A DNA stretch of 64,000 bases from Powellomyces hirtus. Lineage: Eukaryota > Chytridiomycota > Chytridiomycetes > Spizellomycetales > Powellomycetaceae. Both the position numbers and the translations under genes were made by a program. Below are positions 9,398 through 43,671 of the stretch, in pieces; the stretch's first letter is position 1; each line of letters starts with the position of its first letter. The stretch is taken from assembly GCA_025526995.1 (NCBI GenBank), contig JAHLKG010000021.1, positions 496,001 through 560,000 on the forward strand, given 5' to 3'. Below the pieces are notes generated by a model. The model was given only the letters and a program-made list of their open reading frames with translations, made no database searches and was not told where the DNA came from.

Positions 9398-9835
9398 CTA
9401 ATTGAAATACACCTGCAGCATCCACCATCTCAATTGACGATCTGACCGGTTGCATGACGGGCAGCGTATCTCTCCACTCTGATGCACCAGACCCTGTGAA
9501 CAGTTCTCACACAGAAAACAGGGGTCATCACGCCCACAGGCGTGCAGCGTCCAACAGTCCCGCACCGTGTGACACCTTGAACACCGCCTTCTCGTTTTTT
9601 CCCCTTCAAAGAGGTTAACCCACAGCTTTCTGTGCAATACAAAACATCAGTACCCTGAAACCAGCACAACAGAGCTCCTCCCTCACCTGCAGATAACACA
9701 TCTGCGTGCACTGTCGTCAACTGACACCAAAACGTTCTTCAAACATCGGTGTCACAGTAGGTGCCCGCGGTCCCCACAAAAGTTGGCATCTCGGTCAAGA
9801 CAAACAGGACACTTTGGAGCGTGACCGTTTTGCAT
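9398..9835 (-). pseudogene. Antisense RING-finger gene of Copia-4, damaged copy
   Basis: Exons are 9835-9687 and 9629-9398 on the minus strand, with a 57-nt intron (GTGAGG donor, GCACAG acceptor). Both exons have exactly the lengths of the intact copy at 43232-43671 (149 and 232 nt), with no indels. The copy is broken in exon 1: one RING cysteine is Arg (GDRGHLL), and the next conserved Cys codon is TGA. In exon 2 every Cys and His of the second zinc cluster is kept, although many other residues differ. It lies between pol and the 3' LTR, convergent with pol. Confidence 0.75.
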
Positions 9836-9860
9836 GTTCTGGTCTCCAAAGTCAGGGGAG

Positions 9861-10123
9861 TGTTGAGTTTGGACTTGTGAGACAAACCTGTCAACTTGAT
9901 AGTGCCCAAGACTCCACGCTACCTCTGCTGCGCACTCCACAATCCATCTAACCTCGTATGCATAGATAGCTTGCACAGCCACTTTTTCTTCTTCTTCGCG
10001 TGGATCTTCTTTCACCCACCGTTCAGACTTAACAATAACGCAATACAAAGTACCCTTGTCATAGAGAGCATCGAGTTAGCTTCCTTTTGTTGTACTACAC
10101 CTTAACCGGACCTACGCATAACA
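9861..10123 (+). repeat. Copia-4 3' LTR (copy a)
   Basis: TGTTGAG...CATAACA, preceded by a short purine-rich stretch (AGGGGAG) that would serve as the polypurine tract. It is 263 bp and matches 43697-43961 along its length. An antisense reading extends from the RING gene into this LTR. Confidence 0.9.
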
Positions 10124-10550
10124 GATCTGTGCGGTCGACATAGTATAGTGTGTAGTGAGGATAGTCGAGATCTAGCAGTGGTGCTACCATGTAATATGCA
10201 TGTATTGAATTGGAATAAGGGAATGAAGGTAGTTTGCACTAAGTTGGGAGTCTGAAGTGTGTATATCTTATTGGCAGGAGCGTGAAGTACTCTACTATTT
10301 ATACTTTGCGCCTATCTCCTCTTATTGCAACAACTATCCAGCCGCTTTCTTATTGTGGATACAGCAGCAAGTTTGCTGGATACAAGGATATGCCTTATCC
10401 TAGTTGTAGGAGGCATATGATAAAATAAGGCTTACTTCAGCCACTCCATAGCTAACTCTGACCCGCGCATGTTGGGAATCAGAGCAGTGGCTTAGGAAGA
10501 TTGTCCTCATTGCTTACGACAGCGGTGCTTTGGACGCGGGGCATATGACA
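10124..10550 (-). mobile_element. Gypsy-3 5' end: LTR, primer site and leader
   Basis: On the minus strand, an LTR of about 361 bp (10550 to 10190) begins TGTCATATGCC and ends ATATTACA. It is followed by TGGTAGCACCAC (10189-10178) and 54 bases of leader, cut by the Copia-4 LTR at 10123. Nothing of gag or pol is left. The LTR differs from those of Gypsy-1 and Gypsy-2 although the primer site is the same. It sits in a Copia-1 gag. Confidence 0.65.
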
Positions 10551-11490
10551 TAATTTTTGTGAACGAGGTGTTGTACTGTGCAATGGTATGACTTCCTTGT
10601 TGTAGTCTTTCAAGCTGAGTGGGTAGGGTCTCCTCGTGATCGGTCAGTTGGTAACGCCAGAGGAAAGGTCGCTTGAAAGTTTGCCAATTTGTGATGGGAG
10701 TATGTTTCCCTTCTTTGGCCTTCTTGCAGTAGTTTCGGTACCATTGCTTTGCATCACCAGAGAGCTTGCTGAATATGAAGGCGAGTTGTTCTTCTCCAGG
10801 TACAGATTTGAGGCGAAAGACCACATCAGCTTGATCAACAAAATCGACAAGTTTTGAGAGATTTTCGGTTCCGTCGAAAGTCATAACTGCATTGATCACT
10901 GATTCAAAGAATTTGAATAATGTGCGCTGGACTTCACGGTCTTTGCTCTTTTGGCTGCTCGTAGTTGTAGTGCTCTCCGTTGGGGAAAGCAAACGAAAGT
11001 GAGGGGCAACTGGGGCTTCAACCTTGCCATGAGTAATGTGTTGTTGTGCGAAAAGAAACTCATGGCCTGCTTTTGGGCTTCTCATTGGTGAAGCGGGTAG
11101 AGTGTAACTGCCGATGTGAGTATTTCCATTTTTGAACTTTTCGCATTGATGGGAAGGTGATGTAGCGAGAGGATTTGACTTAGTCAAGAGAGTCTTCTCC
11201 AACTTCTCCATCCGATGGTTGAGCTTTTTGTTGATTTCCATCTTAAACCTCTGCAGGATTTGCACGACTGAGTCAGTCTGCACTCCTGACAATTGGGTCG
11301 CCAGTTATGCATGAATATCTCCAGGATTCATCTCATCCACATTGGCATCTGCGTTCTGAGAATTGTGGTAGATTGAGGCATCATTGTTAACGTCTCTTTC
11401 AACATCAGAACCCCGTTCGGCTTCTTGTATCGCTTGACGGGCTTGTTGGCGGGTCTGCACCCCTTGAATGGGAGATCTAGCAGTAGGCAT
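10551..11490 (-). pseudogene. Copia-1 gag fragment
   Basis: The minus frame from ATG 11488-11490 (MPTARSPIQGVQTRQQ) matches the gag start of the full Copia-1 at 35371. It has a TAA at 11305-11307 and then continues in the same frame through the capsid region to about 10551, where the Gypsy-3 LTR begins. The rest of the element is absent. Confidence 0.85.
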
Positions 11491-11596
11491 CTTGACAGTG
11501 TGCACGATACTTTCTTGGCACTTGAATTCAACGAGGAAGACTGGTAGTTTTCAGGTTTTTACGAAGGGAGAATGATTCGCATTTGGCCAGTGTTCT

Positions 11597-11973: not shown

Positions 11974-13997
11974 AATATTTCTCACTTAACTACAATTTCT
12001 TGAACATGAGCATATTAAGAGAAGGGATTAACACAAACATTTTGTTGGGGTGTCAGGCAAAAAGTAACAGTCTGACATGCATCAGCTGTGACGTAGCAAA
12101 GGTTGCGTTGCATAAACCTGCTTAAGCGTTAGACTGCGCGCTAAAAAACAATTGACAACATTGCTCACGCTATCGTCCTTTCTTTTTTTTCCTCCAGAAA
12201 TGTTGACATTTTCATCAAACTGATATCATGACAAGCAAACATTCATTTCCACAACGTTAGGTCAAAAACTTTGCCATCAAGACCTTTTTATTGGAATGTT
12301 GAAGAATGTGCAGCACATGATAGTTTTTAGTTGATCAATTAAAGTGTCTTTTCAACCACATATTTTATTAAAATATTCAAAAAAAAAATTCCCTCAATTT
12401 GTTACTCTGTAACATATTTTTTCAACCATAAAATTTCTATATTTTTAGTAATTTTGTGCAAACTTCATATATGTTTGTTTATTGAGTGAAGTAAAAAAAA
12501 ATAAAATGTGTGTTAGAAAGTGACAATGAAAAGACTGATAATTGTGAAAAGCTTAAAAAGCGTCTATAAACACCAGATTTATGAGAAGTTGGTAAAAGTT
12601 GAATTAAAATTGATAAATTCAAATTTAACAGATATTCAGATTTTATTTAAGACTCACGTAACAAGATAACTATTTTAATTACATTTTTAGCTGTTCCTTT
12701 TTGACATCTGCTTTTTTCTGTGTTAAGAAAATGTTTTTGTACATAAGTTCTATTATAGCCATCATATAGAAAGTTTTTTTTTGGGTTTACTTACACATAC
12801 AGTTACAGAATATTTCTCAATTAACTACAATTCCTTAAACATGATCATATCAAGAAAAGGCATTAACGCAAACTTTTTGTTGGGGTGTCAGGCAAAAAGT
12901 AACAGTCTGACATGCATCAGCTGTGACGTAGCAAAGGTTGCGTTGCATAAACCTGCTTAAGCGTTAGACTGCGCGCTAAAAAACAATTGACAACATTGCT
13001 CACGCTATCGTCCTTTCTTTTTTTTCCTCCAGAAATGTTGACATTTTCATCAAACTGATATCATGACAAGCAAACATTCATTTCCACAACGTTAGGTCAA
13101 AAACTTTGCCATCAAGACCTTTTTATTGGAATGTTGAAGAATGTGCAGCACATGATAGTTTTTAGTTGATCAATTAAAGTGTCTTTTCAACCACATATTT
13201 TATTAAAATATTCAAAAAAAAAATTCCCTCAATTTGTTACTCTGTAACATATTTTTTCAACCATAAAATTTCTATATTTTTAGTAATTTTGTGCAAACTT
13301 CATATATGTTTGTTTATTGAGTGAAGTAAAAAAAAATAAAATGTGTGTTAGAAAGTGACAATGAAAAGACTGATAATTGTGAAAAGCTTAAAAAGCGTCT
13401 ATAAACACCAGATTTATGAGAAGTTGGTAAAAGTTGAATTAAAATTGATAAATTCAAATTTAACAGATATTCAGATTTTATTTAAGACTCACGTAACAAG
13501 ATAACTATTTTAATTACATTTTTAGCTGTTCCTTTTTGACATCTGCTTTTTTCTGTGTTAAGAAAATGTTTTTGTACATAAGTTCTATTATAGCCATCAT
13601 ATAGAAAGTTTTTTTTTGGGTTTACTTACACATACAGTTACAGAATATTTCTCAATTAACTACAATTCCTTAAACATGATCATATCAAGAAAAGGCATTA
13701 ACGCAAACTTTTTGCTGAGGTGTCAGACAAAAAGTAACAGTCGGACATGCATTGACTGTGGCATAGCAAAAGCTGCAGTGTATAAACCTGCATGAGCTTT
13801 AGACTGCACTCTAAGATGCAGCCGACGGTCAACATTGCTAATGCTATCGTCCTTTCTTTTTTTCCTCCAGAAATGTTGGCATTCTCATAGAACTGATTTC
13901 ATGACAAGCAAACATTCCTTCCCACAACGTTAGCTTGAATACTTTGCAATCAAGATCTTTTTATTGGAATGTTGAGGATTGCGTACTCAATGATGAT
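11974..13997. repeat. AT-rich tandem array, 835-bp unit
   Basis: The same start (AATATTTCTCA) recurs at 11974, 12809 and 13644, an exact 835-base period twice. The stretch from about 12042 to 12876 is repeated essentially base for base one period on, while the first about 65 bases of unit 1 and most of the partial third unit (about 354 bp) are diverged. Base composition is far more AT-rich than either neighbour, with runs of T and A. No ORF of note is present. The arrangement resembles repeat-spacer-repeat-spacer-repeat. No function recognised. Confidence 0.9.
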
Positions 13998-20922: not shown

Positions 20923-21187
20923 ACACAGCTGTCTGAACATTACTGACTCCACCTCTATCCCTATCTGGGAAACACGTCACTGTGCCTATCACTGGTACTG
21001 CTGAGGACTTGGAGAACTGTTTGAGCACTCGAGAAGCCTAGATAGCAGGCATAGGACACCTGCGTCTGACCATCGAACGAGCTATTGTCTGGACTGGACT
21101 GGACTGGAGTGGATTTTCTGGAGCAGGTTCTGACCACTTGCGGTTGAACACCGGGACTATCCCATTTTGCCACACTCTTTGCACAAG

Positions 21188-24100
21188 ATGGCTGGCGACT
21201 CTGACATCCGAGTGTCCATTGAGAGGTTCACTGGGGAGAACTTTCACCTTTGGAAGTTGAAAATGAAGATGCTGTTGATTGAGAAGGGACTTTGGGATGC
21301 CATTGACATCAAGGACGGCTCTGGAACTGCCAAGGCCACCAACACAGCATCAGACGACTGGATACGTCGAGATGAGAGAGCTCTGGCTCTGCTGATCATG
21401 TCTTTGAATGATGAGCAATTGATGCATGTTCATGAGGCCGAATCCGCCCTTGAAGCATGGGAAAAGCTGAGGGAGGTGCATGAGAAGAAGGGGGTTGCCA
21501 ACAGACACTTCCTGAGACGTCGGTTCCTCACTGTGACAATGGACCTAACTGATTCCATGACCATCCACATCAACAAGATCAAGAGGATGACCCAGGAACT
21601 TGCAGCCATCGGAGCTCCCGTTTCTGAGGAGGACCATGTGTTCTCCTTGCTCTCTTCCCTTCCAGAAGCCTTTGACACCCTTGTGATGACTCTGGAGTCG
21701 ACCAGTGAGAAGCTGGACTTGGCTTTTGTGACATCCAGGCTGTTGCAGGAGGAAATGAGGCGTGCAGATGGAAAGAAGAACTCTGGAAAGGCAGCAAAAG
21801 CCTTCTTCACACAAGCTGACACCAAAGGGAATGCTCAGAAGACCAACAAGGCTGGGGGAAAGCCAGATTGGAAGAAGGAGGCAGTCCGTCACTACTGCAA
21901 CAAGAAGGGCCACATCAAGAAGGAATGCCACAAGAGGGCAGCAGACGAGAAGAAGGGCCTAAACCAGGCCAACTCGACTCAACAGATGCCTGGAGGCTTT
22001 GCTTTCACCACCATTGGAACTCAGATGCCATCCCTGACATCCGACACTTGGATTTTGGACTCAGGAGCCTCTCAGCACATGACTGGCCGCAGAGAGCTGT
22101 TTGGGGACTATGAGAAGATGTCTCCTGTCGCCATTGAGATGGCAGACAATCACACATTGGAAGCTGTGGGGCATGGAACGCTTCACACATGGGTGATCAA
22201 CACAGAGGGGAAGACAGTGCCCCTGCAAATCCAGAACTGCTGGCACGTCCCCAAGATGACCAAGAACCTCCTATCACTGGCTCGCCTTGCCAAAGCTGGA
22301 GCTTGTTTTGAAGTGGGACCACAGGCTGCTCGGATCATTGCAAAGGATGGGACGGCTTTCCTTGCCAAAGAGAACCAATTTGTCTACACATTCGAGACAA
22401 CACATGGGCAGGCAAATGCTGGGATTGCCCACAATGTTGGAAGGGACACAACAAGTCAGGACTTGTCCCTATGGCATCAGAGACTCGGCCATTTGAACGT
22501 TGCAGACATTGGAAGGCTCACCAAGCTTGCCAAGGGCGTTCAAACCAGTGGGAGCTTGAGCATTTGTGACACTTGTGCACTCAGCAAAGCAAGCAGAGCG
22601 CCATTCCCCAAGGCACAGGCCTCCAGAGCATCAGAGAAGCTGGGATTGATCCACACAGATGCCTGGGGACCAGTTGAACCACCCACAATCACTGGATATC
22701 GCTATTTCGTCACATTCATTGATGACAAGACGAGATATTTCCATGTTTGCCTTATGAAGACCAAGGGAGAAGTTGCTAGGCACTATCAGGAGCTGGAAGC
22801 AGCACTCGTCCCCCTACATGGAAAGCAGATCAAAGCTATCAGATCCGACCCAGGAGGCGAGTACATGAGCAACTTGCTAAGGGACCACTTCAAGGAGAAG
22901 GGCACACAGCATCAGAGGAGTTCAGTAAATACTCCACAGCAAAATGGTGTTGCTGAACGAGCCAACCGTACCCTTGTGGAGATGGGGAGATGTTTGTTGA
23001 AGCAGTCAGGCTTGGACAAGCGTTTCTGGGGAGAAGCAATCATGACAGCAGTCTATCTGAGGAACAGATCTCCCACTGTTGCATGCCCCAAGATGCCTTA
23101 TGAGATGTTCCATGGTATCCCACCATCTCTGGGATATTTGAGGACGTTTGGATGCATTGCCTATGCCTACATTCAACCCAACAAGCGCCAGAAGCTGGAT
23201 GATGCTGCCGTCAAGTGCATCATGCTGGGGTATAGCTCCCACAGCAAGGAATACCGGCTTATGGACATACAGACTAAGAAGATCCTGTTCTCCAGAAGTG
23301 TCAAATTCGATGAGAAGAGCTTCATTCCATCCCTCCAGTCTGCTCAGACGCCCCAAGTGCCTGCTGAGAGCCTGGAAGTGGGAATTGGGCCTGAAATGAA
23401 GCTGCAGGATGTCAGTGACGAGCTGCAGGATGTCAGTGACGAGCTGCAGGAGGTCAGTGACGACTCTGAGGACACAGCCATGTCAGAGGGAGAGGAGAAC
23501 ATGAGGGAACGGACCCCTGAGCCGTCCTCTGACTATGAGAGTGCTGCAGAGCCTTCTCCAACCCCCAAAAGACTCAGGAAGCCGCCAGGAGAGTGGTGGA
23601 AGGCTTCAAGCAACGCTGCAAACGTTGCTGCAGTTGCCTATGCTGTCTCCTTTGTCTCAAACAAGCCCACAAGCTACAAGGAGAGCCAGACCATGCCAGA
23701 TGCTTCACAATGGCGTCAGGCTGCTCAGGAAGAGATGGATGCTCTTGCCAAGAATGGGACATGGCAACTTGTGGATCTGCCAACGGGCAGAAAAGCTATT
23801 GGATGCAAGTGGGTCTTCAAACGAAAGCTGAAGGACACAGGAGAGCTTGACAGATACAAGGCAAGACTTGTTGCCAAGGGATTCTCTCAGAGAGAGGGAT
23901 TGGACTATCAGGAGACGTTTGCTCCTGTTGCCAAGTTTGGTCCCATGAGACTGCTGTTCTCCATTATTGCCACAGACGACTTGGAAGCACATCAGATGGA
24001 CGTGAAGACAGCATTCTTGCAAGGGGATCTGGACTATGTGATCTACATGCGCCAACCGGAGGGCTTTGAGGATTCCAAGCATCCTGGACGGGTCTGCAAG

Positions 24101-28266: not shown

Positions 28267-28541
28267 TGTAATAATACTAGGTCCGCTGCCAGAGTCTAGT
28301 CTTCTATTCGGGAATTCCCTATGTTTAATTCTACTGTAAGATCCCCAAGTCCTTCCTACGCCCGCGTCGGAGTATTCCTACATTTCTTCTGGGCCGCGGA
28401 GCGGTCCCAGTCACGTGATGGCCATCCGTGGCCATCCCTAAGGTCTAGTACCCTTTGGGGTGCTGACGCTAGCGTCCCTCTCGCGCGGGGCTCTTCTTGA
28501 CGCGTGTCTAGGCTTAGGCTGGCGAGCCACGCCTTATTACA
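28267..28541 (-). repeat. Gypsy-1 3' LTR
   Basis: 275 bp, read on the minus strand TGTAATAAGG...TATTATTACA, with AAGGGGGG immediately before its start. It matches 41094-41368 and 1-247. Confidence 0.92.
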
Positions 28542-29689: not shown

Positions 29690-30145
29690 TTAGCTCCCCC
29701 CCCCTTTTTCCACTTTTCTTGTACATAATTTCGCCCTTTTGCTGCCTTCGGGCCGTGAAATCAAATTCAGTACCAAAATCTCATCGCTGTACTTTCCTTC
29801 TCATTGCTGTGCTCTCTTGAGTTTTGTGGCATTTCCTATGCGCCAATATCACTCGGCTTCCTACCGGCTATGGGGCTCATGGTCGATGCCCGGCATTACC
29901 CTTCCCCGCAGGGGAAGACCGCCCGGCGGTCCCTTGGCCACCGTCCAACAATGCCGGCATCTCACCTAGTGAGGTCTACTGCCTTGCAGTCTTCGGCTCC
30001 TCGCCCAGGGATCCCGGCATCTCACCCAGTGAGGTATGCTGCCCAGCAGCCTTCGGCCATTGTCCAACGATGCCGGGACCTCGCACTATAATGTCCTCTA
30101 CCTCAAGTAGCATATCTCTTGTTAATTTACGGTACAGCTTGCTAT
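29690..30145 (-). other. Gypsy-1 3' non-coding region with short repeats
   Basis: No gene seen. Two to three imperfect copies of a unit of roughly 55-65 bases containing CCGGCATCTCACC and AGTGAGGT lie at about 29890-30075. The region separates the pol stop from the end of the antisense gene. Confidence 0.55.
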
Positions 30146-33100
30146 CTAGGTTCTCTTACGTTGCCTGGCTGCTAGCCGTTGGCCGCGGTCCTCTCTGGGA
30201 TGCTCCCTGAGCCATTCTTCCATTGCGGTCGTTCCCTTCACGTGTGCGTAGGGCTCCCACGTGTTCTGGGTGTTGTCGTAACCTGTCCATTTGACTAAGA
30301 ACTGCTCGATGTTCCTGTGCCATCTTGCATTTAGGATCTTGTCCACTCGGTAGGTTTCCTGACCGTCCTCGTCCTTCTCGGGCTCCGGCGGAGCGGTGAC
30401 CTGTCTGTACGGGGTACCACCCGGGTCGTGGTAACGTCTCAGAATGCTGACATGAAAGACTGGGTGCAACCCGGTGAACTCCCTGGGTAGTTCGAGCTCG
30501 TAGGTGTCAGGATGCAGGCCCTTGCCGCGTACTGTGAATGGTCCAATCCATTGCTCAGCCAGCTTTTTGTTCCTTGTGGTGACGCTGGTAATGGCGATAC
30601 CCTCACGATGGAGTAAGACCTTGTCACCCTCTCGGTATGCCTCCGTGTGCTTTTTGCAATCATAGTACTTTGCCTGCTGGTCCTGTGCATCCCAGAGCCG
30701 TTGCTGCACGATGCAGCTCACGTCGGCAAATTCCTTAATCCGTCTCTCCACCGCGGTTCGTGCTGATTGCCTTATCATCTCTCCGGGGTTAGGTCCTACC
30801 CATTGGTTCGGTACCCGAGGAACACGGCCTAGGTCAATCTCGAAAGGAGATAGTCCCGTTGATGTCTGCGGCGCTTGGTTGTAGTTGTACTCGAGTGTGA
30901 GGAGTAAACTCTTCCAGTTGGAACCAGCGTAGTCAAGAAAGGGGCCCATGATTCCCTAGATTGTCTTGATGGCGTTCTCCGCCTTGCCGTCGGTCTGTTG
31001 GAGTTGTGCCAACAAGAGTTCCTGCCTGAGGTCGAGTGCCCGCATGAGGTACCGCCAGAATTTTGAGAGCCACTTGGGGTTCCGATCGCTCACGATGGTG
31101 TGGGGTAACCCCGTATGGCGAAATGCCTGTTCCAGAAAGAGTTGAGCCGTCTCCTGAGCTGTAGCGCATGTGTTAGTAGATAGGAGTATCATGCGGCATG
31201 AAAGGTAGTCAACAATGAGGAGTACAGTGTCCGCCATCTTGGTCAGTCTCTCGCCGGTGTCTTGCAAAGGGTTCTTTGTCACGTTGGGCTCTACCCAAGG
31301 TTCCCCCCCCTTAGAGTCTGACGAGAGGAAGAAAATATCCATGCCGATTTGTTGCCAACAAGCGTCGGGAATTCTTAAACTGCAGAGGAAACCGATCGGC
31401 GCGGCTCGCTTGTGACGTTGGCAGGTAGGGCAGGTGCAGATATATTGGTACACATCACGCTCCATGTGGGGCCAATAGTACGACTCCAGAAGTTTGGCGA
31501 GCGTCCGTTGGACACCGGAGTGACCACTGTTCGCAAGGGAGTCGTGATGAATCTGAAGGGGTGGCCCCTGCAAGCTGTTGGGGACGTACCGACGGTTGTG
31601 GTACATCAAGAATCGGTGCGGGGGGGAATTCAGCATCCAGAATCGGCGCGCATGGCCGGATAACTTCTCCTGTGGACCGTTGATAGTTAGTAAGATGTTT
31701 TGGCTGAAATCATCGGATGCAAGCGCTCGGGTCCAGTCCGCATCGGTCGGTATGTGCATTGTGACAATCTTCTCCGTGTACACAATGGCGGTGACCACGT
31801 CAATCTTGGCCTGGCAGGTCGCACACTTGGGGGCGTAAGTCGGGTCGCGACTGAGGAAGTCGGCAATCGAATTCCATGTGCCGGGGAGGTATTCCACTGA
31901 GAAATTGAACTGTTGGAGGAACTCGACCCAGCCTGCTTGGCGACGTGACAGGTGGGGTTGTTCCTGGAGATAGATCAGGGATTTGTGGTCAACAAAAGTG
32001 CGGAATGGGCGGCCGATGAGGTAATGGCGGTTAGCGCGTATGGATTTGACTAGTCCCAGCAGTTCTTGTTCATGCACGGGGTATCGGGTCTTGGCTGGTT
32101 GCATCTTGCGGGAGTAGTATGTCACCGGGCAAAGTTGCGAAAGGTTAGCTAAGCCTGATTTGGTTGTAGGTAGTGGATGAGGGTATGGGAAATCCCCTGC
32201 AGCCGGCTGTGCCAGCCATCCGCCATAGGCGTAGCCCGATGCATCTGTAAACAAGTAGGTGTCGAGCGCCGGGTTGAAATACGCTTGGGTAGGTGCCGAA
32301 GAGCATTATTCCTTTAAGCGATTGAACGCCTTGTCCTCCTCGTCGCCCCATTGCCATGGGCGATTGCTGGATCGTAGGTTCGTTAACGGTAAGGTGATCT
32401 GTGCATACTCAGGGATGTATTCTTTGACGTAGTTGACAAGGCCCATGAAACTGAGGAGTTCCAGGGAGTTGGTCGGGCGAGGTCGTTCCCGGACCGCGGT
32501 CACCTTGGAGGGGGCAATACTCAGGCCATCCTTGCCGACTCGGTGGCTGCAGAACTCGACTTTGTCAACCGCCCATTGACATTTGCTGGGTTTGATGTGA
32601 AGGCGATGTTCCGCCAGGGTCTTGAGGACCTTGTCGACGTGCTGAATGTGCGAACTCATGTTGGTGCTGAGAATGAGAATATCGTCGAGGTATGAGATCA
32701 CATAGGCATCTTACTTGTCGCCCAAGAGTTTGTTGGTTAGTTGCTGGAATGTAGCAGGTGCATTAGTTAAGCTGAAAGGTAGAACATTGTATTTGAAATA
32801 ACCAAAACGTGTTCGGAACGCTGTTTCTCCCTATCTTCCGGTCGAATCATGATGCAGTGGTATGCGTCGCGGATGTCAATCACGGTGAATACCCGCATGT
32901 TGACAAGCCTGTCACGCAGCTCTGAGAGGTTCGGAAGCAGCGTGGCATCCTTGTGGGTCATCTTGTTCAGTGCCCGGTAGTCAATGCAGCAGCGTAAGCC
33001 GCCGTCCTTCTTCAGGGCAAATAGGACGGGCGCGCCCCACGGGCTGCGAGAATGTGAGATCCAACCTGTGTCCATTAAACGCTGCGTCTGCTGGCTGAGC

Positions 33101-34889
33101 TTGTCCAATTCGTCAGGGCTCAAATGCCAGAGTGGCTGCATCACGGGCTTCGAGCCGGGTTTGAGCCGAATGGTGAAATTGTCCTCGCCTCAATCTGGAG
33201 GCATGCCTGACTGCTCGGTGAATAGCGCTGTGACGTATTTCTCTAGGGTCGGTCGGAGTGGATGGTCGGCCGCCAGCGCCTCTAGCGGGTCCTCTTGATC
33301 TGCCGTCTTGGCTTTGGCGTTGGTGTGGCGTCGTCCCTCCAAGATTGCCCTTTTCTTGGCGTCGACCGTCCGTACGAATTGAGCCTCTACGACTGGAATT
33401 GCATCTACGATGTGTACCTCGAAGACTCCAGTGATCTCGCCCTTCTTCATCAAGCGTTTCCATTGCTTGGCCGTGTAGATTTCCTCTGCATTGAGTGCTG
33501 GCTTCGCCAGCTGGAATCTGCAGGGCCGTATCTCTCGTGGGGAGAGCAGGCGGGCGGCGCACGCGGACGGTGCTTCCCAATGGCAATTAGTCGATTTGGC
33601 TCAAAGGCTGAGGGTCTGGCTGTTGTGGTAGAATGTCATCGTTGGGAAGCCTTCTTGATCGAAAAGCCCTCGGACGTCCAGCCCCAATATGAATGGCAAG
33701 CCCAGTATGGCATCGACCCTGATCGGCGCGACCACGAACAGTACGGTATCCTCCCGGTAGATGATCTTCTCCTCGGTGAACACCGAGAGGTCCCCACAGG
33801 TCATCTTTGTTGCCCCGTAGTTTCCCGCTCTGTCGCCCCACCGGACCTCCAGCGGAGTTGGAGAGGTGTAGGTCCGGAGGCCGTTTTTGGCGGCCCAAGT
33901 GTCGCTGATGATCAGGGTGTTACATCCAGTATCGATTAGGATGCGGGCAAAGTGCCCTTGTACCTTCCCGTGGACCACAAATGTTTTCCTGTGAATGCGG
34001 GGTCCCGGTCTGTCCGTGGGGATCTTGTCTTGCATCCGGGGTTGGGGTACTGAGACGGTGCAAGCGTTCAGCACCTGGGGCGAAAATCCGAGCTGTTGAC
34101 TGAGCCCCCGTCGCTGGCCGCCTCATCTCCGGACCCTTCGGTGATCTCTACAGGGGCGGCGAACGTCCTATGCTCACCGGTCTTGCCTTACCTGCTGGGC
34201 ACTCACAGGCGTAATGCCCCTTGCCTCCGCAGTTGAAACATTTGTTGCGCTCACGGCGTTCGTTGTAGATGGTGCGCTCACGGTGTGAAATCCCTTGGTA
34301 GTTGTCCATACCGCATGTGGGGCGGCCTGAGCCGTAGGGTGTGTGGCGCCCCCGTTCTCGTGCTTGATAGTTCCCTCAGTGGACCTGGGCCGGCTGCACT
34401 GCAGCGTACTGACGTCTTCTCCCGTCGGAGGTCACCCGCGCGAGGTCATCCGCATAGCCTCGAATCTTGTAGCATAACAGGGCTTTGTTCTGTAGCTCAG
34501 TGATAGGGATCTTGGTGCCATTATTCCTCATGATCACGGCGTAGCAGTGGTCTCAAATGCGCTGGCCGACATGGTTGGTCGAGAATCCGGTCAAGAAGTA
34601 GTCACGCTCTTGCCTTGGGGTAAGTCGCTCCTTGTCGTCGAGCGTTGCAATCTGGGCCCAAAGGGTATTAAACTTGGCGATGTACTCTGATATGCTATTA
34701 GTGAAAACCAGCCGCTTCATCTTTGCCTCCGCGGTGTTTCGTAGGTTGGTGGGATAGAAGCGGGTGCGGAGGATCCTCGTGAACTCTTCCAATGTTGTGG
34801 GTAGGTCGTCGGCATCCCTGAGCATTTGCCACCACTCGTCGATGGTCTCCTTGAGGTACCCTGAGATGTGATCGACGTCCCAGTGGGCC
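30146..34889 (-). pseudogene. Gypsy-1 gag (C-terminal part) and pol
   Basis: From high to low coordinates: gag capsid region to about 34553; CCHC knuckle (CFNCGGKGHYACEC) near 34200-34250; protease with intact Asp-Thr-Gly near 33940 (34074-33601); RT 33144-32306, broken by frameshifts near 32830 and 32710, with YLDD near 32690; RNase H and integrase (H2C2 motif near 31410-31490) in 32254-30956; integrase end and chromodomain (YRVDKIL, FLVKWTGY, NTWEP) in 30949-30146. A TAG near 30951 stands where CAG is likely, in the same frame as its surroundings. The chromodomain marks it as a chromovirus. Confidence 0.87.
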
Positions 34890-35256
34890 TATTGGAATGT
34901 TGAGACTTGCGTACTCAACGTTTGGTCCTTACATTAGATCCTTACTTGGATTCTCCAACTAGAACGCGTGACCATCATACCGGTAACGCTAAGAGCTGAA
35001 TTGGATCACGTGTGATCACGTGATTGGAGAAAAAGTAGATTAGAACGCTCGAAGCGAGACATTACCGATAAGACTTTAAGACATAAAAATACATTCACAT
35101 ACATTACATCTCCGTGCATCTGACAACGCTACATCGTCATCTGCATCACAGAAGAGCTCTGTAAACCCCCTTTACGAAGTATACTGGAGGCCACATCGAA
35201 TTCGGCCAATCCTCTGCATTTCCGATAAAGTACTGGAAACGCCGATATCTCTAACA
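34890..35256 (+). repeat. Copia-1 5' LTR
   Basis: TATTGGAATG...CTCTAACA, 367 bp. The TA...CA ends are atypical for LTRs (usually TG...CA) but are fixed by the GGGCC duplication. It holds an inverted CACGTG/GATCACGTG block near 35008-35023. Confidence 0.95.
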
Positions 35257-35270
35257 GGTTATGAGCCCTG
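35257..35270 (+). other. Half-tRNA primer-binding site (Copia-1)
   Basis: GGTTATGAGCCCTG directly after the LTR; complement of the initiator tRNA-Met anticodon arm. Confidence 0.85.
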
Positions 35271-35370
35271 AGACCGGTCGAATTCGAATCATTCTCCCTT
35301 CGTAAAACCTGTAAACTACAAGTCTTCCGTCAAATTCAAGTGCCAAGAAAGTACCGAGCACACCGTCAAG

Positions 35371-38300
35371 ATGCCTACTGCAAGATCTCCCATTCAAGGA
35401 GTGCAGACCCGCCAACAAGCCCGTCAAGCCACACGAGTAGCCCAACGGGGTCCTGACGCTGAAGAAGACGTTAATATAGATGCCTCAATCTACCATGATT
35501 CCCACGACGCAGATGCCGATGTGGATGAGATGAATCATGGAGAAATTCATGCAGACTTGGCGATAGTACCGTCCGAAGTACCGACTGACATTGTCATGCA
35601 AATTCTGCAGAGGTTCAAGATGGAAATCGACGAAAAACTCGACCATCGGATGGACAGGTTGGAGAGGACTTTATTGACTAGTTCAAACCCTCTCGCTACA
35701 TCAACTTCCCATCAACAACCCGAGAAGTACGAAAAGCCTCATATCGGTGGTCATTCTATGGCCGTTTCACCGATGAGAAGCCCAAAAACGGGCCTTGAGT
35801 ACCCTTTTCTACATCAACACATTACTCACGGCGAAGTTGAAGCCCCAGTTGCCCCTCACTTTCGTCCGTCTTCCCCAACGGAGAGCACAACAACTACGAG
35901 CAGCAGAAAGAGTGATGATCGAGACGCACAACGTACATCATTTGCATACTTCAAATCTGCGATCGATGCAGTATCTACATTCGACGGGACGGGAAATCTC
36001 TCAAAACTCGCCGACTTCATTGATCAGCTTACTCTAGTCTTTCGCCTAAAACCTGTCTCTGAAGAAGAACAACTCTCATTCATCTTCACAAAGCTCTCTG
36101 GCGAGCAAAACAATGGTATCGTAATCACCAGAAAGATGCCGAACAAGGGATGGTGGAGCCCATCACGGATTGGGAATCCTTCAAGCCTCCTTTCCTCTCG
36201 CGTTACCAACCAAGTGATCATGAAGAAACTTTGCTCACTCAACTTGAAAGACTCCGACAAGGAAGTCATTCCATCTCGCAGTACAATACCTCATTCACGA
36301 AGATCACAAGTCAAATCCCCTTGAAGGTGCCGTTCGAAATCTACAAGTGGTTTTACCTTCGCGGAATGAATGAACATCATGCAGAGCTCGTCAGAACTCA
36401 AAGTTTCAAGGATCTCCATGGCCTCATGGCAGCTGCCAAGCGTCTGGATAACGGAAGTAACAAGAGTAACCAAAACAACCGTTTCGCCAAGAAGAGGGAA
36501 AACATCGCGCTCGAAGCCCAACCTTCAAAGAAAGACGGCTCAAGTCACAAGAAGACCGACGCGAAGAAGACCACAGACTCAAAGAAGAGACAGAACTTCC
36601 CCTGTTGGTTATGCAATTCGAATGAACATACCCCATTCAATTGTCCCCTCAAAGCCAAGGCAGTCGAAGCCTTAAAACCCGCTGCTAATGCCAACATTGC
36701 AGAAGCACATAACGCCACTACATTGGCTTACCTGGATTCGGGCTGCTCACAGCACATGACGAATGACATTTCCATTCTCGAATCCTACGAAGAGCACTCA
36801 ACGCGCGTCAGATTTGGAAACAACGCCTTTCTCGATGCCGAAGCGAAAGGGAACACTATCTTGAAGCTTCCAGATGGAGATGTACCTCTCACTGATGTTC
36901 TTTACGTTCCGAAGCTTGCCAAAACTCTCATCTCGGTCTCTGCACTCGCCAAAGATGGAAAGAGAGTCACTTTTGAAGATGAGAGCGCTATCATTCAAGA
37001 CTGCAATGGCACTACGAACGACATCACCATACCTCTCGTTCGAGGAATGTATCACATCTCGCCAACTCCGATGGCTTTCGCTACTCAAACTCGCTCAAGG
37101 ACACACGCATCCAATGTACCGACACACGCGTCGAAAAATACATCTACCGAATTGACAAAATGGACAAACGCGTCCAATGTACCGACACACGCGTCCGATA
37201 CATCGATTCAAGCACTCAACCTGTCGACAGACGCTACCGGTATGGCGGTCACGCGTTCTACCCCGCTCCAAGCCACGTCGGAGGGGCCAGCTGCCCCGAA
37301 TGGGGGGCCAGCCGGCCCGATACTCTCCAGTGAGGGGGCTGGCCAGCCCCAAATTGGGGCGGCCAGCCCCCCACTGGAGAGTGAGAGTTGTGGGTGCTGT
37401 GGTGGGGGGCCGGCCGCCCCAAAAGCATCGGATGATGCTGAGGATGGTGCCCCCTCGGGGGCACCATCCGCCGATGGCGCCGCCGCCGCCGCCGCCGCCG
37501 CTGCTTCGGCGGCTTCTTCTGGGGCTTGTTCTGGTCCCTTTTCTCCTGTCAACGAAGGAACCCTCTGGCATCACCGATTGGGCCATCCTGGCACTCACAT
37601 CTTGAAGCAACTCAAGCTCCCAATGACCAACGAAGTCTGCAAAGGTTGCGAGTTTGGTAAGCACAAGCGCTCACCATTCAACGGTACGATGACACGGTCC
37701 AAGACGCCACTCGATCGCCTACATTTCGACCTAAACGGTCCGCACATACCTGCGGTTGGCGATGAGAAATATGCCCTCGTTGTGATCGATGACTATTCCC
37801 GCTTCACATGGATCTTCTTCTTGAAGACGAAGAGCGAATCTACTGCAAAATTGATTGAATTCATCAATTTCATCGAAAAACAGACCAACGAAAGGGTCAG
37901 ACGACTTCATTCCGATCGAGGGGGGGAGTTTGTCAATCACGATCTGAAAGAATTCATTTCGAAAAAGGGCATCCTGCACGAACTCACCGCTGCAGATTCC
38001 CCACAGTCCAACAGTGTAGCTGAAAGGTTCAACCTCACCCTGTTCGACACCATTTGTTCATTGGAACACTCATACGGCATCCCAAAACAACTCTGGACCG
38101 AGTTAGCGACTACATCAGTCTACTTACGGAATTGCCTCCCCCACAAGTCCAATAACAACATCTCACCGTACGAAAGGCTTTACGGCGAAGAGCCCTCACT
38201 TTCTCACCTTCGTGTGATTTGGGCCGATGCCTTTGTGCATCTTGTCAAGAGAAAACAAGCCTCGAAGTGGGCACCGCGCGCCACACGTCTCAAGCTCATC

Positions 38301-40250
38301 GGTTACGAATTTGACGGCGCTTACCGCTGTTGGGATGACAACCGTCAAGAAATAGTCATTTCTTGCGATGTAACGTTTGACAAAACTTCAGTACTCGAAC
38401 TCGCAAAACACTACATCCCGCCTGAAGAACTCTATGAAGTCAAAGAGACTCTCGACTCACATGATGGCCCGGAAGGCCCTGAATTCCTCTGCAAATGGCT
38501 GGGATTCGAAGACAAAGATAATACATGGGAACCGACCAAAAATGTCAATCATTTGACGGTATTTGCTGACTACATTAACAAGAAGACAGCGATCGCTCTT
38601 TTGGGTGCAAGTACCGAAGAACCCCAAACCTACAAACAAGCGCTCTCATCAGATGATGCACCGAAGTGGACCGAGGCCATAAATGCAGAATTGAAGTCCC
38701 TTCATACCAATGAAACATGGGAAGTCATCAACCCCAAATCCTTACCGCACAATCAACGGCCCATCCGCACCAAATGGGTATTCAAGATTAAGCGAGACCT
38801 GAATGGTCAACCCCAACGATACAAGGCCCGGCTTGTAGTGAAAGGCTTCGAACAACGCTACGGTATCGACTATAACGAAACCTACGCTCCGGTTGCCAAG
38901 ATAGCTACCCAACGCGTCCTCCTTGCTCTCGCCGCCAGTCTAGGCTTGAAATGCCATCAAATGGATGTAGTAACCGCATTCCTGAATGGGATTGTTACCG
39001 AGACCATCCTAATCTATGCCCCTGAAGGCTCTGGCTTTCCGCCCGGGACCATCCTTCGACTCCGAAAGGCCCTTTACGGTCTGAAACAAGCCCCGCGCGA
39101 ATGGTACTCCCTACTTCACAAAGAACTGACTTCTTTGGGATTCAAGCGCCTGGCAAATGACAATGCCGTTTACATCAGAACTCTACCTGAAAGTGACTCA
39201 CTGCAGTACATCTCTGTCTACGTCAACGATCTTCTCATTTTCGCGAAGACCGAATCAGAAATCTCGTCAATCAAGACATCCCTGCACAACGAGTTCAACA
39301 TGACAGACCTAGACGAAGTCAGCCACTACCTAGGAATGAGAGTTCGACGCGACTACTCAAGGCACGTCATCTACCTCGATCAAGAGTCATATGTAAATGA
39401 CATCCTCGAGCGCTTTGGTATGCAAGATTGCAAGCCCGTCAACACTCCGATAGGCCAGACCAAGCACGAACCCTACGAAGTCGAAAATACAAAGACTTCA
39501 CCTAACCCGCAAGAAGGAGAATATCACGAAATCGTTGGTTCTCTCATGTACCTGATGATATGCACGCGTCCTGACATCGCTGTCGCAGTCAGTATGCTTT
39601 CTCGCTTCGCAAGCAACCCTTCGCCTCAACATCTGCAAGCTGCAAAGCGCGTTCTTCGCTACCTACGGGGAACATCAGATTACAGCCTCTGCATCGGCGG
39701 AAATAACGTCACCCTTCACGGCTACAGCGATGCCGATTGGGGAAACAACATCATTGATCGACGGTCAATCACTGGCTACCTTTTGTACATTGGAAATGCG
39801 CGCCCCGTTACTTGGGCTTCAAAGCGCCAACCCACCGTTGCTCTCTCATCTACCGAAGCTGAATACATGGCACTTTCCTTTGCCACTCAAGAAACAATCT
39901 GGCTTTGCTCACTTCTGCAAGAACTCCAAATCCCCGAATATCTCGATGAGAATGCTCGACCTACAACGATCTACGAAGACAATCAGTCATGCATCTCGTT
40001 GGCAATGAATCCTGTGCATCACGCTCGTACCAAGCCCATCGACATTTGACATCACTTCATTCGTGATCACATCAACAAAGAGATTCACCTGGAGTACTTA
40101 CCCACCGCTGAAATGGTAGCCGACTCACTTACGAAGCCTTTACCGGCCCCGGCATTCAAATACCATCGCGAAAGCATGTGCATCAAGCACTATGACAACA
40201 CCATCACGCCAATGACGAAAGCATCCATGACAGAGCTCCCGAATGAGTAA
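35371..40250 (+). pseudogene. Copia-1 gag-pol polyprotein with frameshift and TGA
   Basis: Starts at ATG 35371 (MPTARSPIQ). A one-base deletion near 36101 shifts the capsid frame, as the copy at 48905-49687 shows. From 36150 the frame is open to TGA 40047-40049, then continues in frame to TAA 40248-40250. Seen in order: CCHC-like knuckle (CWLCNSNEHTPFNC, about 36602); protease LDSGCSQHM (36736); GC-rich spacer (37110-37550); integrase zinc motif (WHHRLGHPG, CKGC) and core with Asp, Asp (HSDRGGEF) and Glu (NSVAERFN); chromodomain 38425-38585 (FLCKWLGF, NTWEP); RT with YVND instead of YVDD (39219-39230); RNase H. The TGA sits where an Arg CGA is expected. Confidence 0.9.
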
Positions 40251-40289
40251 AATCCCATCATCGCGGATCGATTGCTCGGACAGGGGGTG

Positions 40290-40656
40290 TATTGGAATGT
40301 TGAGACTTGCGTACTCAACGTTTGGTCCTTACATTAGATCCTTACTTGGATTCTCCGACTAGAACGCGTGACCATCATACCGGTAACGCTAAGAGCTGAA
40401 TTGGATCACGTGTGATCACGTGATTGGAGAAAAAGTAGATTAGAACCCTCGAAGCAAGACATTACCGATAAGACTTTAAGACATAAAAATACATTCACAT
40501 ACATTACATCTCCGTGCATCTGACAACGCTACATCGTCATCTGCATCACAGAAGAGCTCTGTAAACCCCCTTTACAAAGTATACTGGAGGCCACATCGAA
40601 TTCGGCCAATCCTCTGCATTTCCGATAAAGTACTGGAAACGCCGATATCTCTAACA
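40290..40656 (+). repeat. Copia-1 3' LTR
   Basis: 367 bp; differs from 34890-35256 at four visible sites, three of them transitions. Followed by the GGGCC duplication. Confidence 0.95.
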
Positions 40657-41065
40657 GGGCCGTCCTGAAGTCAGTTGCCTCAAGGTAGCGTGTATGGACC
40701 TTCAAGAACTTGTCAACCTTAGACACCATTTCTTTGCTGTTTCCTTTGCCGTCGAAGTGTGTCAGCTGCTTGCGAAGGTTCTCACGGCGTTCATCTTTGG
40801 CTTGCATTTGTGCTTGGTTTTCTTCCACCAGGATAATGTCGACGTGTGGTGTTGCAGCCGTCGGTTGGGCTTGAGCTGGGAACCTCGAAAGGAGAGCGGT
40901 GAAACGTGCTTCTCCCATTGCAATCTGCTCCTGCAGTAGCCGTTGGGTCTCCGCCAATTGTGCAGCCAACATTATGACGGGGTTGTCGGTCAGTGTGTCG
41001 ACTTCGGGTTCTCCTACTCCCTGGCTTTCTCCTGCCATTGTGCTGTTCCTGGTGCTACGTGCCAT
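40657..41065 (-). pseudogene. Gypsy-1 gag, N-terminal part
   Basis: Minus strand from ATG 41065: MARSTRNSTMAGESQ, a predicted coiled region rich in Gln/Glu and the start of a capsid domain, interrupted by Copia-1 after codon about 134. The frame continues across the insert at 34889 when one GGGCC copy is dropped. Confidence 0.85.
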
Positions 41066-41093
41066 TGTTGTCGTCTACGGGGTGGTGCTACCA

Positions 41094-41368
41094 TGTAATA
41101 ATACTAGGTCCGTTGCCAGAGTCCAGTCTTCTATTCAGGAATTCCCTATGTCTAATTCTACTGTAAGATCCCTAAGTCTTGAATACGCCCTCGTCGGAGT
41201 ATTCCTACTTTTTTTCTGGACCACGGGGCAGTCCCGGTTACGTGATGGCCATCCGTGGCCATCCCTAAGGTCTAGTACCCTTCAGGGTGCTGACGCTAGC
41301 ATCCCTCTCGTGCAGGGCTCTTCCCAACGCGTGTCTAGGCTTAGGCTGACAAGCCAAGCCTCATTACA
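41094..41368 (-). repeat. Gypsy-1 5' LTR
   Basis: 275 bp, read on the minus strand TGTAATGAGG...TATTATTACA, followed by primer site TGGTAGCACCAC at 41093-41082. Confidence 0.92.
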
Positions 41369-41790
41369 GGCTGTGTGCCACGTGACAACCGAGTGATTCA
41401 TGTTTGTTACAGCATATTCGTCGAAGTAGTTGAACTCATTGTAGGCAATGCCAATATAGGCTGTAATGAAGTAATTGCACGCTCTGACACTGGTGGTGAC
41501 AAAAACGTCGATCAACTCCATGTTGTGCTTGCCGGAGAAGTACAGGATCGTCTTCATATTGGCAACAAGGGTTGTCGATACTCGTTAGGTTGATCACCGT
41601 TTTGTGGAGCAGGACCAACGGCGGGCATGGTCCAGGCGGCAGGTCCGGGTGCAGCCATTGTAAATCACTATATTTCAATCAAAGAAAGAGCAAGAGGAAA
41701 TGAGTTTGACAGGAAAGAACGGGAGTGGTGCTACCATGTGAGGTGCCTATGTTTCAAGGCGGGAGAAGTATGTTTCAAACGTGGGTGCAA
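41369..41790 (-). mobile_element. Gypsy-2 copy c: LTR edge, primer site and gag start
   Basis: The minus strand reads a short LTR end (41790-41737, ending CACCTCACA), primer site (41736-41725), leader, and gag from ATG 41658 to the Gypsy-1 LTR. Gag matches 1101-1400 (MELID, FVTTSVRACN) but has a one-base frameshift near 41562. The right edge against Copia-4 copy b is approximate. Confidence 0.8.
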
Positions 41791-43155
41791 TGAGTGAGAA
41801 GTCACCGCCAGACGTTCATCTTGTTGACTCTAAAGGGGTCTTCAAAGTTAAACGCAACGCCGATGGTTCAATCAAGAAGTTCAAAGCCCGCCTTGTTGCC
41901 CAAGGTTTCATGCAGCGTGAAGGCATTGATTTCAACGAGACATATGCACCCGTTGTCAAGTTGCAGGGGCTACTCTCGCTTGCCGCCAAGCTCGATCTTC
42001 ATGTCCATCAGATGGATGTGATCACCGCATTCCTTAACGGAGATCTTGACATAGATCTGGATGCGGCTCCCAGCCGGCATCACTGACGACGTCATCAAAC
42101 TATGCCATTCTCTTTATGGCCTTAAACAATCGCCGCACCTACGGAACAAGGTTCTTGACTTCTTCCTTCAACGGCGCGGGTTTTCAGTATCAGAATCCGA
42201 CACCACGCTCTACATCAAGTGGACTGACAACACAAAGATTCTGATTGTCGCCGTCAATGTGGACGATCTCACGATTTCCGCATCAGATCTCGATGACCTG
42301 CTCGCTCTCAAGTCCGCGCTTGCTGAACGCTTCAAGATGGAGGACATGGCGGAGATCTCTTTCCTTCTTGGTCTTCAGATTACGCGCGACCGGTCGAAGA
42401 GCTGCATCACCGTCGGTCAACAGAGGTACATCAAAGACATGATCGACAAGTTTAACCTCAACGGCATACGGCTGCATCACACTCCAATGGATCCGAACTC
42501 ACATCTAAGTGCAAACGATGGAGCTGACGCTCTTGACGCATCAGGAATCAAGGAATATCAGTCAATCATTGGAACGCTAATGTATCTGATGTTAGGAACT
42601 CGCCCTGACCTTGCCTATTCCATCTCTCGCCTATCTCAGTTTCTAACGGCACTGACAGCTGCACATATGACGGCCGCAAAGAAAGTTTGCACGTGCGCAA
42701 ACACAACCAGTGATCTCTCTCTTGCCTTCAAAGATGGGGGAGACATTGTCGGATATTCGGATGCTGACTATGCACACTGTACGGACACGCGCCGCTCAAC
42801 TTCTGGCTATGTATTCATGCTCAATGGAGCTGCCATTTCATGGAAAGCTCAATGTCAAAAATCAACGGCATTATCCACGGCAGAAGCTGAATACATTGCA
42901 CTCGCGGAATGCGCGAAGGAAGCACTCTGGATCCAGGGTCTCCTATCTGAACTGTCAGCAACGGAGCAGACAGCGGTTCTCATTTACAAGGGCAATCAGG
43001 CCGCCATCAAGCTTGCGGCCAACCCGACGCATCATCAACAGCCCAAACATATTGATGTCTGTTATCACTTTCTGCGAGATCTTGTTGGCAACAAGCGCAT
43101 TCACCTACAGTACATTGAATCCAAGCTCATGCTTGCTGACGCTTTGACGAATTGA
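41791..43155 (+). pseudogene. Copia-4 RT and RNase H (copy b)
   Basis: RT begins at the VHLVDSK region. One frameshift near 42070 separates 41781-42086 from the frame 42061-43155. The active-site box reads NVDD (42257-42268), with both Asp kept but Tyr lost. RNase H carries STAEAEYIALAE near 42880. The end (LMLADALT) is close to the expected C-terminus. Confidence 0.85.
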
Positions 43156-43231
43156 CGATCTGTGACACCGGACTGGACTTCAAACAAAACCAGATTACGT
43201 CAAATTTAATTGCTATACACCCGCCGTAAAT

Positions 43232-43671
43232 CTAGTTGAAATACACCCGCCGCAACCACCATCTCAATTGGTGATCTGACTTGTTGCATTTCGGGCAGCG
43301 TATATCTCCACTCTGATGCACCAGATCCTGTGAACAGCTTTCACACAGAAGACAGGGGTCATCACGCCTACAGGCGTGCGGTGTTCGACAGTCTTTTATG
43401 TTGTGACACCCCTGACACCGCCTCCTTGCTTCTTCCCCTCCAAAGAGGTTAATCCACAGCTTTCTGTGCAATACGAAATATCAGTAACCTGAAAAACCAG
43501 CGCAACAAAGCTTGTCCCTCACCTGCACATAACACATCTGCGTGCGGCGTTGTCAGGTGTCACCAGAACATACTTCAAACACTGGAAGCACAGCAAGTGC
43601 CCGCAATCCCCGCAGAAGTTGGCATCTTGAAAAAGACAAACGGGACACTTTGGAGCTCGACCGTTTTGCAT
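43232..43671 (-). CDS. Antisense RING-finger gene of Copia-4, intact copy
   Basis: Minus strand, exons 43671-43523 and 43463-43232, joined across a 59-nt intron (donor GTGAGG, acceptor GCACAG) in frame; 126 residues from MQNGRAPKCPVC. An in-frame ATG inside the LTR at 43785 would give 164 residues. Exon 1 is a C3HC4 RING: C-x2-C-x10-C-x-H-x2-C-x2-C-x14-C-x2-C (CPVC, CGHLLCFQC, CVMC). Exon 2 holds a second cluster C-x2-C-x5-C-x3-H-x-C-x5-C-x2-C-x2-C-x5-H-x6-C-x2-C. Splice sites and exon lengths equal those of copy a, and all exon-2 Cys/His are shared. RING proteins commonly act as ubiquitin ligases; the role in the element is unknown. Confidence 0.75.

Follow-up and report, generated by a model that had tools for sequence, protein, structure and literature searches.

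Antisense RING-type genes between pol and the 3' long terminal repeat in two retrotransposon families of the chytrid Powellomyces hirtus

The window analysed here, a stretch of 64 kb from the 29.3 Mb genome (60 contigs) of the chytrid fungus Powellomyces hirtus, is a nest of long terminal repeat (LTR) retrotransposons, and it raises the question of why elements of two classes should carry a gene of one kind in one place. The initial annotation had proposed that a Ty1/copia and a Ty3/gypsy element each bear an antisense, intron-containing, two-cluster RING-type gene next to the 3' LTR, and had given 9398 and 43671 as the ends of this finding. The placement was borne out for both families, whereas the description as a two-cluster RING fits the copia protein best, RING matches of the gypsy protein being weak. 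Both positions proved to belong to copies of a single copia family's gene, and the gypsy gene lies between them, at 28958-29689 on the plus strand. The explanation that we favour, with a confidence somewhat better than even, is that two LTR families independently acquired a two-cluster RING-type accessory gene, each holding it antisense in the interval from pol to the 3' LTR, that the genes are maintained under selection and may act in trans on a host factor, and that the gypsy gene has been exchanged.

The intact copia RING gene of the window (copy B) occupies 43232-43671 on the minus strand, with its ATG at 43671-43669, and encodes 126 amino acids. It converges with the reverse transcriptase (RT)-RNase H region of its element, at 42055-43155 on the plus strand (RVT_2, E 7.5e-27), and is followed by the 3' LTR at 43697-43961 (plus strand), a polypurine stretch lying between the inner edge of the LTR and the RING ATG. 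Another genomic copy matches 41803-43961 of this element. Copy A, at 9398-9835 on the minus strand, belongs to the same family, shares 83% DNA identity with copy B and contains one in-frame stop; its LTRs are located at 4438-4660 (5') and 9861-10123 (3'), both on the plus strand, and GGTTATGAGCCC, which starts at 4661 directly after the 5' LTR, is presumably the primer binding site. Copies A and B agree in the spacing of 25 nucleotides (nt) between the RING ATG and the inner edge of the 3' LTR. The family was assigned to Ty1/copia by its RVT_2 reverse transcriptase and its LTRs.

The gypsy RING-type gene of the window is intact, with four exons encoding 178 amino acids, and lies 416 nt away from the gypsy 3' LTR (28267-28541, minus strand, TGTAATAA..TTATTACA, with a polypurine stretch at its inner edge). 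It converges with an integrase C-terminus that contains a Tf2-1-like SH3 domain and a chromodomain (30146-30955, minus strand), next to which are RNase H and the integrase zinc and core region (30956-32305, minus strand). The 5' LTR, at 41094-41368 on the minus strand, is 89% identical to the 3' LTR. The element was classed as a Ty3/gypsy chromovirus (Chromo, E 5.8e-11), RVT_1 and rve scoring below their cut-offs in this broken copy. Its pol open frames are in several pieces, yet the RING gene is intact. The gene exists as two main alleles, g1 and g2, with 50-56% protein identity in the pairs compared; g1, the allele of the window copy, was found in 18 of 87 places among the matches listed, this copy included.

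To determine how far this arrangement extends, the genome was searched with both RING proteins and position and strand were recorded, as the initial annotation had advised. Tallies were made by coordinates, a RING gene being counted when it lay antisense and no more than 1.5 kb downstream of pol. The counts that follow refer to the matches listed for RING and pol and are lower bounds (for example, the best 112 of 639 and the best 143 of 513 candidates). They are also slightly inflated by near-identical sequences (contigs C23 and C39, contigs C16 and C38, and C11:379915 and C11:389175), which may be assembly duplicates or recent segmental duplications. RING places numbered at least 43 for the copia type and at least 92 for the gypsy type in the 29.3 Mb, and convergent geometry was dominant. 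An antisense RING gene was present within 1.5 kb downstream, typically at 106 nt, in 32 of the 33 copia-family copies that reach the pol C-terminus. Conversely, 36 of the 43 copia-type RING places had pol in the same convergent geometry, and two of the seven others (L017 and L034) have partial pol in their loci. All 30 fetched copia-RING loci, of the 43 or more places, had the RT-RNase H of the family on the other strand. The negative control was a second copia family, in which the RT is 41% identical and many pol frames exceed 1300 amino acids; it is represented in the window at 21134-25240 and had a RING gene in none of 73 copies.

The gypsy family gave a similar picture. A convergent RING gene lay 0.6-1.5 kb downstream of the integrase in 76 of 88 copies, on the 5' side in four and on the same strand in one. 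Counted from the RING gene, 77 of 92 places were convergent with an adjacent integrase (76 of 87 in an earlier tally from a single listing). Three of 37 integrases from other gypsy families also scored, and a carrier-family copy stands between each of them and the RING gene. Fifty zf-RING_2 matches were detected in the genome; the best eight had no carrier pol proteins within 1.5 kb, and two of the 50, both on contig C32, are copia RINGs by position. The accessory gene is antisense to pol and lies between the pol stop and the 3' LTR in most listed copies, and it is confirmed that both families carry an antisense, intron-containing, two-cluster gene there beyond the window too. RING genes scattered irrespective of LTR elements, the outcome against which the initial annotation had set its proposal, were not what was found: chance and the plain abundance of RING genes are ruled out by the pol, strand and distance tallies together with the cargo-free copia control.

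Several loci depart from the simple arrangement. Pairs of RING genes ~5.1 kb apart on one strand would also fit a RING gene inside the LTR; this was ruled out on contig C3, where tandem elements share an LTR. At this locus (L077, C3:1782400-1790300) two tandem copia copies have one common LTR and 1654-nt ends that are 99.94% identical, and the RING pairs 5.1-5.4 kb apart on contigs C22 and C26 may likewise be tandem copia elements with a common LTR. Tail pieces between the RING gene and integrase are repeated in L069, L082 and many other gypsy copies, so the length of this interval varies; no tandem array was present in the interval of the window gypsy copy.

Whether the genes are functional or simply carried along was assessed from their structure and conservation. 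The copia gene has one 59-nt GT..AG intron in phase 2, directly after the eighth zinc ligand, and the gypsy g1 gene has GT..AG introns of 59, 74 and 62 nt in phases 0, 0 and 2. Copies were taken from the fetched loci, de-duplicated and of at least 85% of gene length, gypsy copies also having at least 75% identity to the reference. From 37, 9 and 33 matches that passed, 17 g1, 8 g2 and 27 copia copies were obtained, respectively. Intron acceptors were AG in all 52 distinct copies for every intron, and donors were GT throughout, with the exception of gypsy intron 3, where AT was found in 4 of 17 g1 and 1 of 8 g2 copies. In reference codon columns (insertions not checked), 12 of 17 g1, 2 of 8 g2 and 16 of 27 copia copies were free of stops and gaps; five of the other six g2 copies had no stop and had gaps of 3-4 nt. 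The pooled ratio of nonsynonymous to synonymous polymorphism (pN/pS) was 0.35 for g1, 0.31 for g2 and 0.55 for copia, or 0.33, 0.33 and 0.45 when calculated from the stop- and gap-free copies only. These values fall between 1 and the pol yardsticks, which were 0.24 for the gypsy integrase (11 copies) and 0.22 for the copia RT-RNase H (28 copies). At Cys and His columns, 0.5-1.5% of copies had a residue other than the commonest one, compared with 5.7-14% at other columns. Both cargo genes are under purifying selection and have conserved splice sites.

Neutral hitch-hiking, in which host fragments were captured once per family and have been carried unused, is highly improbable in the light of these data. 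Extra open reading frames (ORFs) in LTR elements are known, and RING-deleted gypsy copies exist as a tandem pair; against this stand the proportion of open g1 and copia copies, the conserved splice sites and ligands, the pN/pS values of 0.31-0.55, and the presence of RING genes beside integrases that are only 49-66% like that of the main gypsy family. The deletion form was found at L088, where nearly the whole gypsy RING coding region is absent and the family LTR is kept. Among the best 40 of 90 candidates in a DNA search, the deletion junction was matched over its full length twice, by sites in tandem at a distance of 7.76 kb. The RING-less form was not seen to have spread, a weak indication of a benefit of the gene in cis.

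The identity of the two proteins differs in firmness. The copia protein has a regular C3HC4 RING, its ligands invariant in 4/4 alignment rows, followed by a second cluster of eight invariant Cys residues. An Arg stands directly after the eighth ligand in 27 of 27 copies, a residue with a role in RING ubiquitin ligases, enzymes that bind a ubiquitin-conjugating enzyme (E2) and transfer ubiquitin. A copia family profile, which included the homologous gene described below, matched the RINGs of BRCA1, RNF4 and TRIM proteins; BRCA1 was the best single-RING chain (E 0.0051) and a chain with two RNF4 RINGs gave E 6e-5. The window protein alone reached only E 0.054 against Pfam RING families, and all copia-group Pfam scores for which a cut-off is shown fell below it. 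Judged from its ligands, the copia gene is solidly a C3HC4 RING. The gypsy protein has a basic, Thr-rich N-terminus, a RING-like cluster of the form C-x2-C-x12-C-x-H-x2-C-x2-C-x17-C-x4-C, in which the last pair, C-x4-C, is unusual, a second Cys/His cluster and three further conserved Cys residues near the C-terminus. With an input set in which one row was blended and two copies were decayed, RING matches reached E 0.0025 and 0.013; they weakened when intact copies were used, and the RING identity of the gypsy gene is weak.

A ubiquitin-ligase function would be better founded for the copia protein than for the gypsy protein. It is possible, though we consider it doubtful, that the RING-type proteins are instead nucleic-acid-binding or particle proteins, accessory and zinc-knuckle-like, with no role in ubiquitin transfer. 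The basic N-terminus, odd ligand spacing, weak RING matches and additional C-terminal Cys residues of the gypsy protein are in keeping with such a role; the regular first RING of the copia protein, its invariant Arg and the profile matches to BRCA1, RNF4 and TRIM RINGs argue against it.

The initial annotation had also noted that the two proteins differ in sequence and intron positions, and had asked whether related host genes were captured twice or one cargo was exchanged. The differences hold: intron positions are not the same in the copia and gypsy genes, and when the two profiles were compared with hhalign the match was confined to a ~30-column RING core, with probabilities of 4.5% and 3.2%. 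As homology between the two cargos is not detectable beyond this core, two independent gains, rather than one shared cargo, appear likely. A single ancient RING cargo that moved between the two superfamilies and has since diverged would account for the common slot, strand and pair of clusters. It is very unlikely, given the limited profile homology, the differently placed introns and the fact that the copia gene shares its intron with another gene of the genome instead. Of the two possibilities that had been raised, separate gains fit better, with a possible host homologue for the copia gene and none found for the gypsy gene. Exchange of cargo does occur inside the gypsy lineage, as described below, and is not supported between copia and gypsy (hhalign 3-5%).

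The gene that shares the copia intron is located at C1:350941-351352, encodes 119 amino acids and is a homologue of the copia cargo, with a tblastn E value of 1.65e-15 (1.25e-18 in the case of its duplicate). It stands head to head with a gene, one of five full-length paralogues, that we take to encode the dynein light chain LC8. The intron of this RING gene is in phase 2 and immediately follows the eighth zinc ligand, the same as in the copia gene; the residue after that ligand is Gln, and the zf-C3HC4_3 score of the RING gene (E 7.9e-5) is the best Pfam RING score of the copia group. No copia pol match was found in the 2 kb around it, where two gypsy matches were at chance level (E 0.16 and 0.62), and no listed RT-RNase H lies within 1.5 kb. 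The LC8-RING pair is duplicated (L086, C1:350400-352400; L087, C34:35400-37200), with 93% DNA identity over 853 nt, and the C34 duplicate of the RING gene carries a stop. The homology of the duplicates stops at about the RING stop codon, and the C34 copy adjoins an open frame on the other strand. From the shared intron, the LC8-linked gene is a possible host progenitor of the copia cargo, and capture from host to copia as DNA would be a simpler reading than domestication of a copia gene beside LC8. No host homologue of the gypsy gene was found, and the two divergent matches that were examined both adjoin a gypsy integrase.

The two gypsy alleles were compared to establish where their divergence begins and ends. 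Integrases of g1 and g2 carriers are 91-96% identical, the exception being the decayed copy L083 (85-89%). A scan of three g1-g2 pairs in 100-nt steps gave 80-97% identity from the LTR to ~28860, 52-72% over exons and introns of the gene, with 74-78% in the final step, and 92-99% from ~29760 onwards, integrase included; the divergent block corresponds to 28860-29740 on the plus strand of the window. In the RING tree, g1 grouped with L071, the integrase of which is ~53% identical, and g2 with L090, the integrase of which is ~64% identical; a tree constrained to place g1 and g2 together was rejected by the approximately unbiased (AU) test (p 5.6e-7). The integrase tree placed g1 and g2 carriers together with support of 98/98.5, and g1 with L071 was rejected (p 0.024). 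L071 and L090 are decayed copies on long branches, and the tested clades were named after the first tree. Fast evolution alone is disfavoured, since the introns have diverged as much as the exons, the block has edges and the trees conflict. The gene-sized divergent block and the conflicting RING and integrase trees are best explained if the gypsy RING gene was replaced whole by recombination with another gypsy lineage. No comparable block was detected in 13 pairs of the copia family, which showed only milder dips (one copy lacking the 5' part).

The exchange bears on what the genes might act upon. The main rival to an action on the host is that the cargo is an antisense self-regulator, a form of copy-number control or homotypic immunity in which the RING protein or the antisense RNA dampens gag/pol or the integrase of its own family. 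Copy-number control is known for Ty1 and offers a parallel. The position antisense over the 3' end of the element, the retention in most listed copies and the purifying selection are all compatible with self-regulation, and a second parallel is offered by retroviral genes that are read antisense from promoters in the 3' LTR (PMC10186651). It is nevertheless unlikely, since a self target matched to each allele would be expected to vary with the allele that the element carries. In three pairs compared for tail, integrase C-terminus and LTR, the first two are equally alike across and within alleles and the LTR almost equally. A function of the RNA alone would not conserve codons and the Cys and His residues. 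A more specific version of host action, that the gypsy RING gene is an interchangeable cassette swapped whole, since its protein targets a host defence factor in an arms race, and that copia independently recruited a host RING for the same job, is put forward tentatively and falls well short of an even chance.

Under the favoured explanation of two independent, selected gains, the cargo would form a separate transcription unit with a predicted promoter in or beside the 3' LTR. Its introns, being antisense, would remain unspliced in the genomic RNA and hence survive retrotransposition. The copia cargo may have derived from a host RING gene like the LC8-linked one, taken up as DNA with its intron. 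The proteins would work in trans to counter a host factor restricting the element, and a role as RING factors of ubiquitin-ligase type is the most likely one; the copia factor would be a C3HC4 RING with Arg after its last ligand and the gypsy factor a basic, probably nuclear, RING-like protein. A host target would explain why the gypsy RING gene is swapped and the LTR and integrase stay the same.

A number of observations weigh against this explanation. Among the matches listed, a partner is missing for 12 of 88 gypsy integrases and 15 of 92 gypsy RING places; of the 12 RING-less integrases, two are the tandem deletion pair and one has another gypsy element in its tail. The pN/pS of the copia RING gene is above that of its pol, pointing to weaker constraint or faster change. 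In some g2 copies (L073, L075, L084 and L085), introns 1 and 2 contain no stop and preserve the frame, which would permit reading without splicing; the frame of the window g1 copy does not stay open when unspliced. RING matches of the gypsy protein are weak, with a best Pfam score of E 0.011 in one of five intact copies and E 0.048 for PCGF5, and its ligand spacing is unusual. AlphaFold models were of low confidence, with a mean predicted local distance difference test score of 30.5 for gypsy, from a frame that included intron-coded residues (unspliced), and 48.1 for copia, from exon 2 with the second cluster only. A clade made up of the g1 carriers alone is not rejected by the integrase data (AU p 0.09), so that a single old exchange would suffice for the gypsy data. 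A copia gene left beside LC8 and then domesticated would look alike, and neither the copia RING nor the LC8-linked RING had relatives in the protein database, which says little about fungi.

Among database proteins, a single relative of the gypsy RING was found: P0001, entered under Powellomyces chytrid fungus MELD virus 1 with the label 'oncoid'. Its identity to gypsy-borne g2 copies (e.g. L073:953-1540) reaches 96%, with introns 1 and 2 counted in. P0001 was filed as the gene of a DNA virus and corresponds to a gypsy-type RING frame read through its introns; the record may hold a retrotransposon. An origin of the gene in the MELD virus was considered; as P0001 matches gypsy-borne copies and the listed gypsy-type copies mostly stand beside gypsy integrase (77 of 92), a gypsy copy in the record is likelier, and the 'oncoid' label probably denotes a gypsy copy in the MELD contig. 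A PF03175 search of the genome gave no match, and its control was likewise without a match anywhere. No relatives of P0001 were found in viral contigs, which says little about fungi. The available part of the preprint PMC11071296 defines the Oncoid class solely by short linear motifs, and we assume that the P0001 record was filed by the same group.

Accessory genes in comparable positions have been described in other hosts. In the plant gypsy elements Retand, Grande and RIRE2, the portion of PMC11963269 at hand reports antisense ORFs with a TRP28 domain between pol and the 3' LTR; as here, the antisense gene in this interval is a regular feature of the lineage and is suspected of a regulatory role. 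These passages differ in that they concern TRP28 and other domains, in plants, in non-chromovirus gypsy and not in copia elements, and describe no cassette swap. The main text of PMC11963269 contains none of the words RING, zinc finger, ubiquitin and intron. The gypsy family of P. hirtus has a chromodomain and no TRP28 match, and does not belong to the Retand lineage proper. HBZ, of human T-cell leukaemia virus type 1 (HTLV-1), is a spliced basic leucine zipper protein. In retroviruses including HTLV-1, negative-sense promoters within the 3' LTR drive antisense genes (PMC10186651); HBZ resembles the present genes as an antisense gene at the 3' LTR and differs in belonging to a vertebrate retrovirus, antisense expression of the chytrid genes being predicted.

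In LTR elements of bdelloid rotifers, ORF3 types are common to several retroelement classes, according to the accessible sections of PMC5408684. One accessory ORF type in different classes, and modular gene sharing, are points of likeness; the rotifer ORF3s are env, GDSL, DEDDy and others, whereas the two RING genes here are not detectably homologous. Neither 'RING' nor 'intron' occurs in the main text of PMC5408684. Orchid Ty3/gypsy elements with an N6-methyladenosine demethylase domain (PMC9289625, in the part available) likewise have a fixed host-type extra domain, and differ in the domain and in the plant host. The terms antisense, ubiquitin and zinc do not occur in the main text of a survey of fungal LTR elements, PMC3248453. 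A RING-bearing antisense gene in an LTR element was not found in the titles and abstract openings covered by the literature search, the scope of which excluded subscription papers.

Of the remaining features of the window, an open frame at 40529-41074 on the minus strand, at the 5' end of the gypsy element, is putatively gag by its position; no Pfam family scored above the cut-off for it. A nested cargo-free copia element at ~34881-40580 interrupts the gypsy element and separates this frame from the remainder. In the interval 11974-13943, an 835-nt unit is repeated within an A+T-rich stretch (31% GC) that adjoins another gypsy element.

Antisense accessory genes of LTR elements were already known in plants and retroviruses. 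One fungal genome here provides two probably independent, selected examples of one kind of protein in the same slot. The same genome also supplies a cargo-free copia control, a possible host progenitor with a common intron, copies that lack the RING gene by nature, and a pair of natural alleles carried by otherwise similar elements, so that the function of such genes, and their opponent, can be directly tested. Host targets, if found, would be evidence for a viral style of host antagonism by intracellular fungal retrotransposons. If the cassette and arms-race reading were true, LTR elements would have an accessory-gene system comparable to the swapping of immunity and evasion regions in phages and retroviruses.

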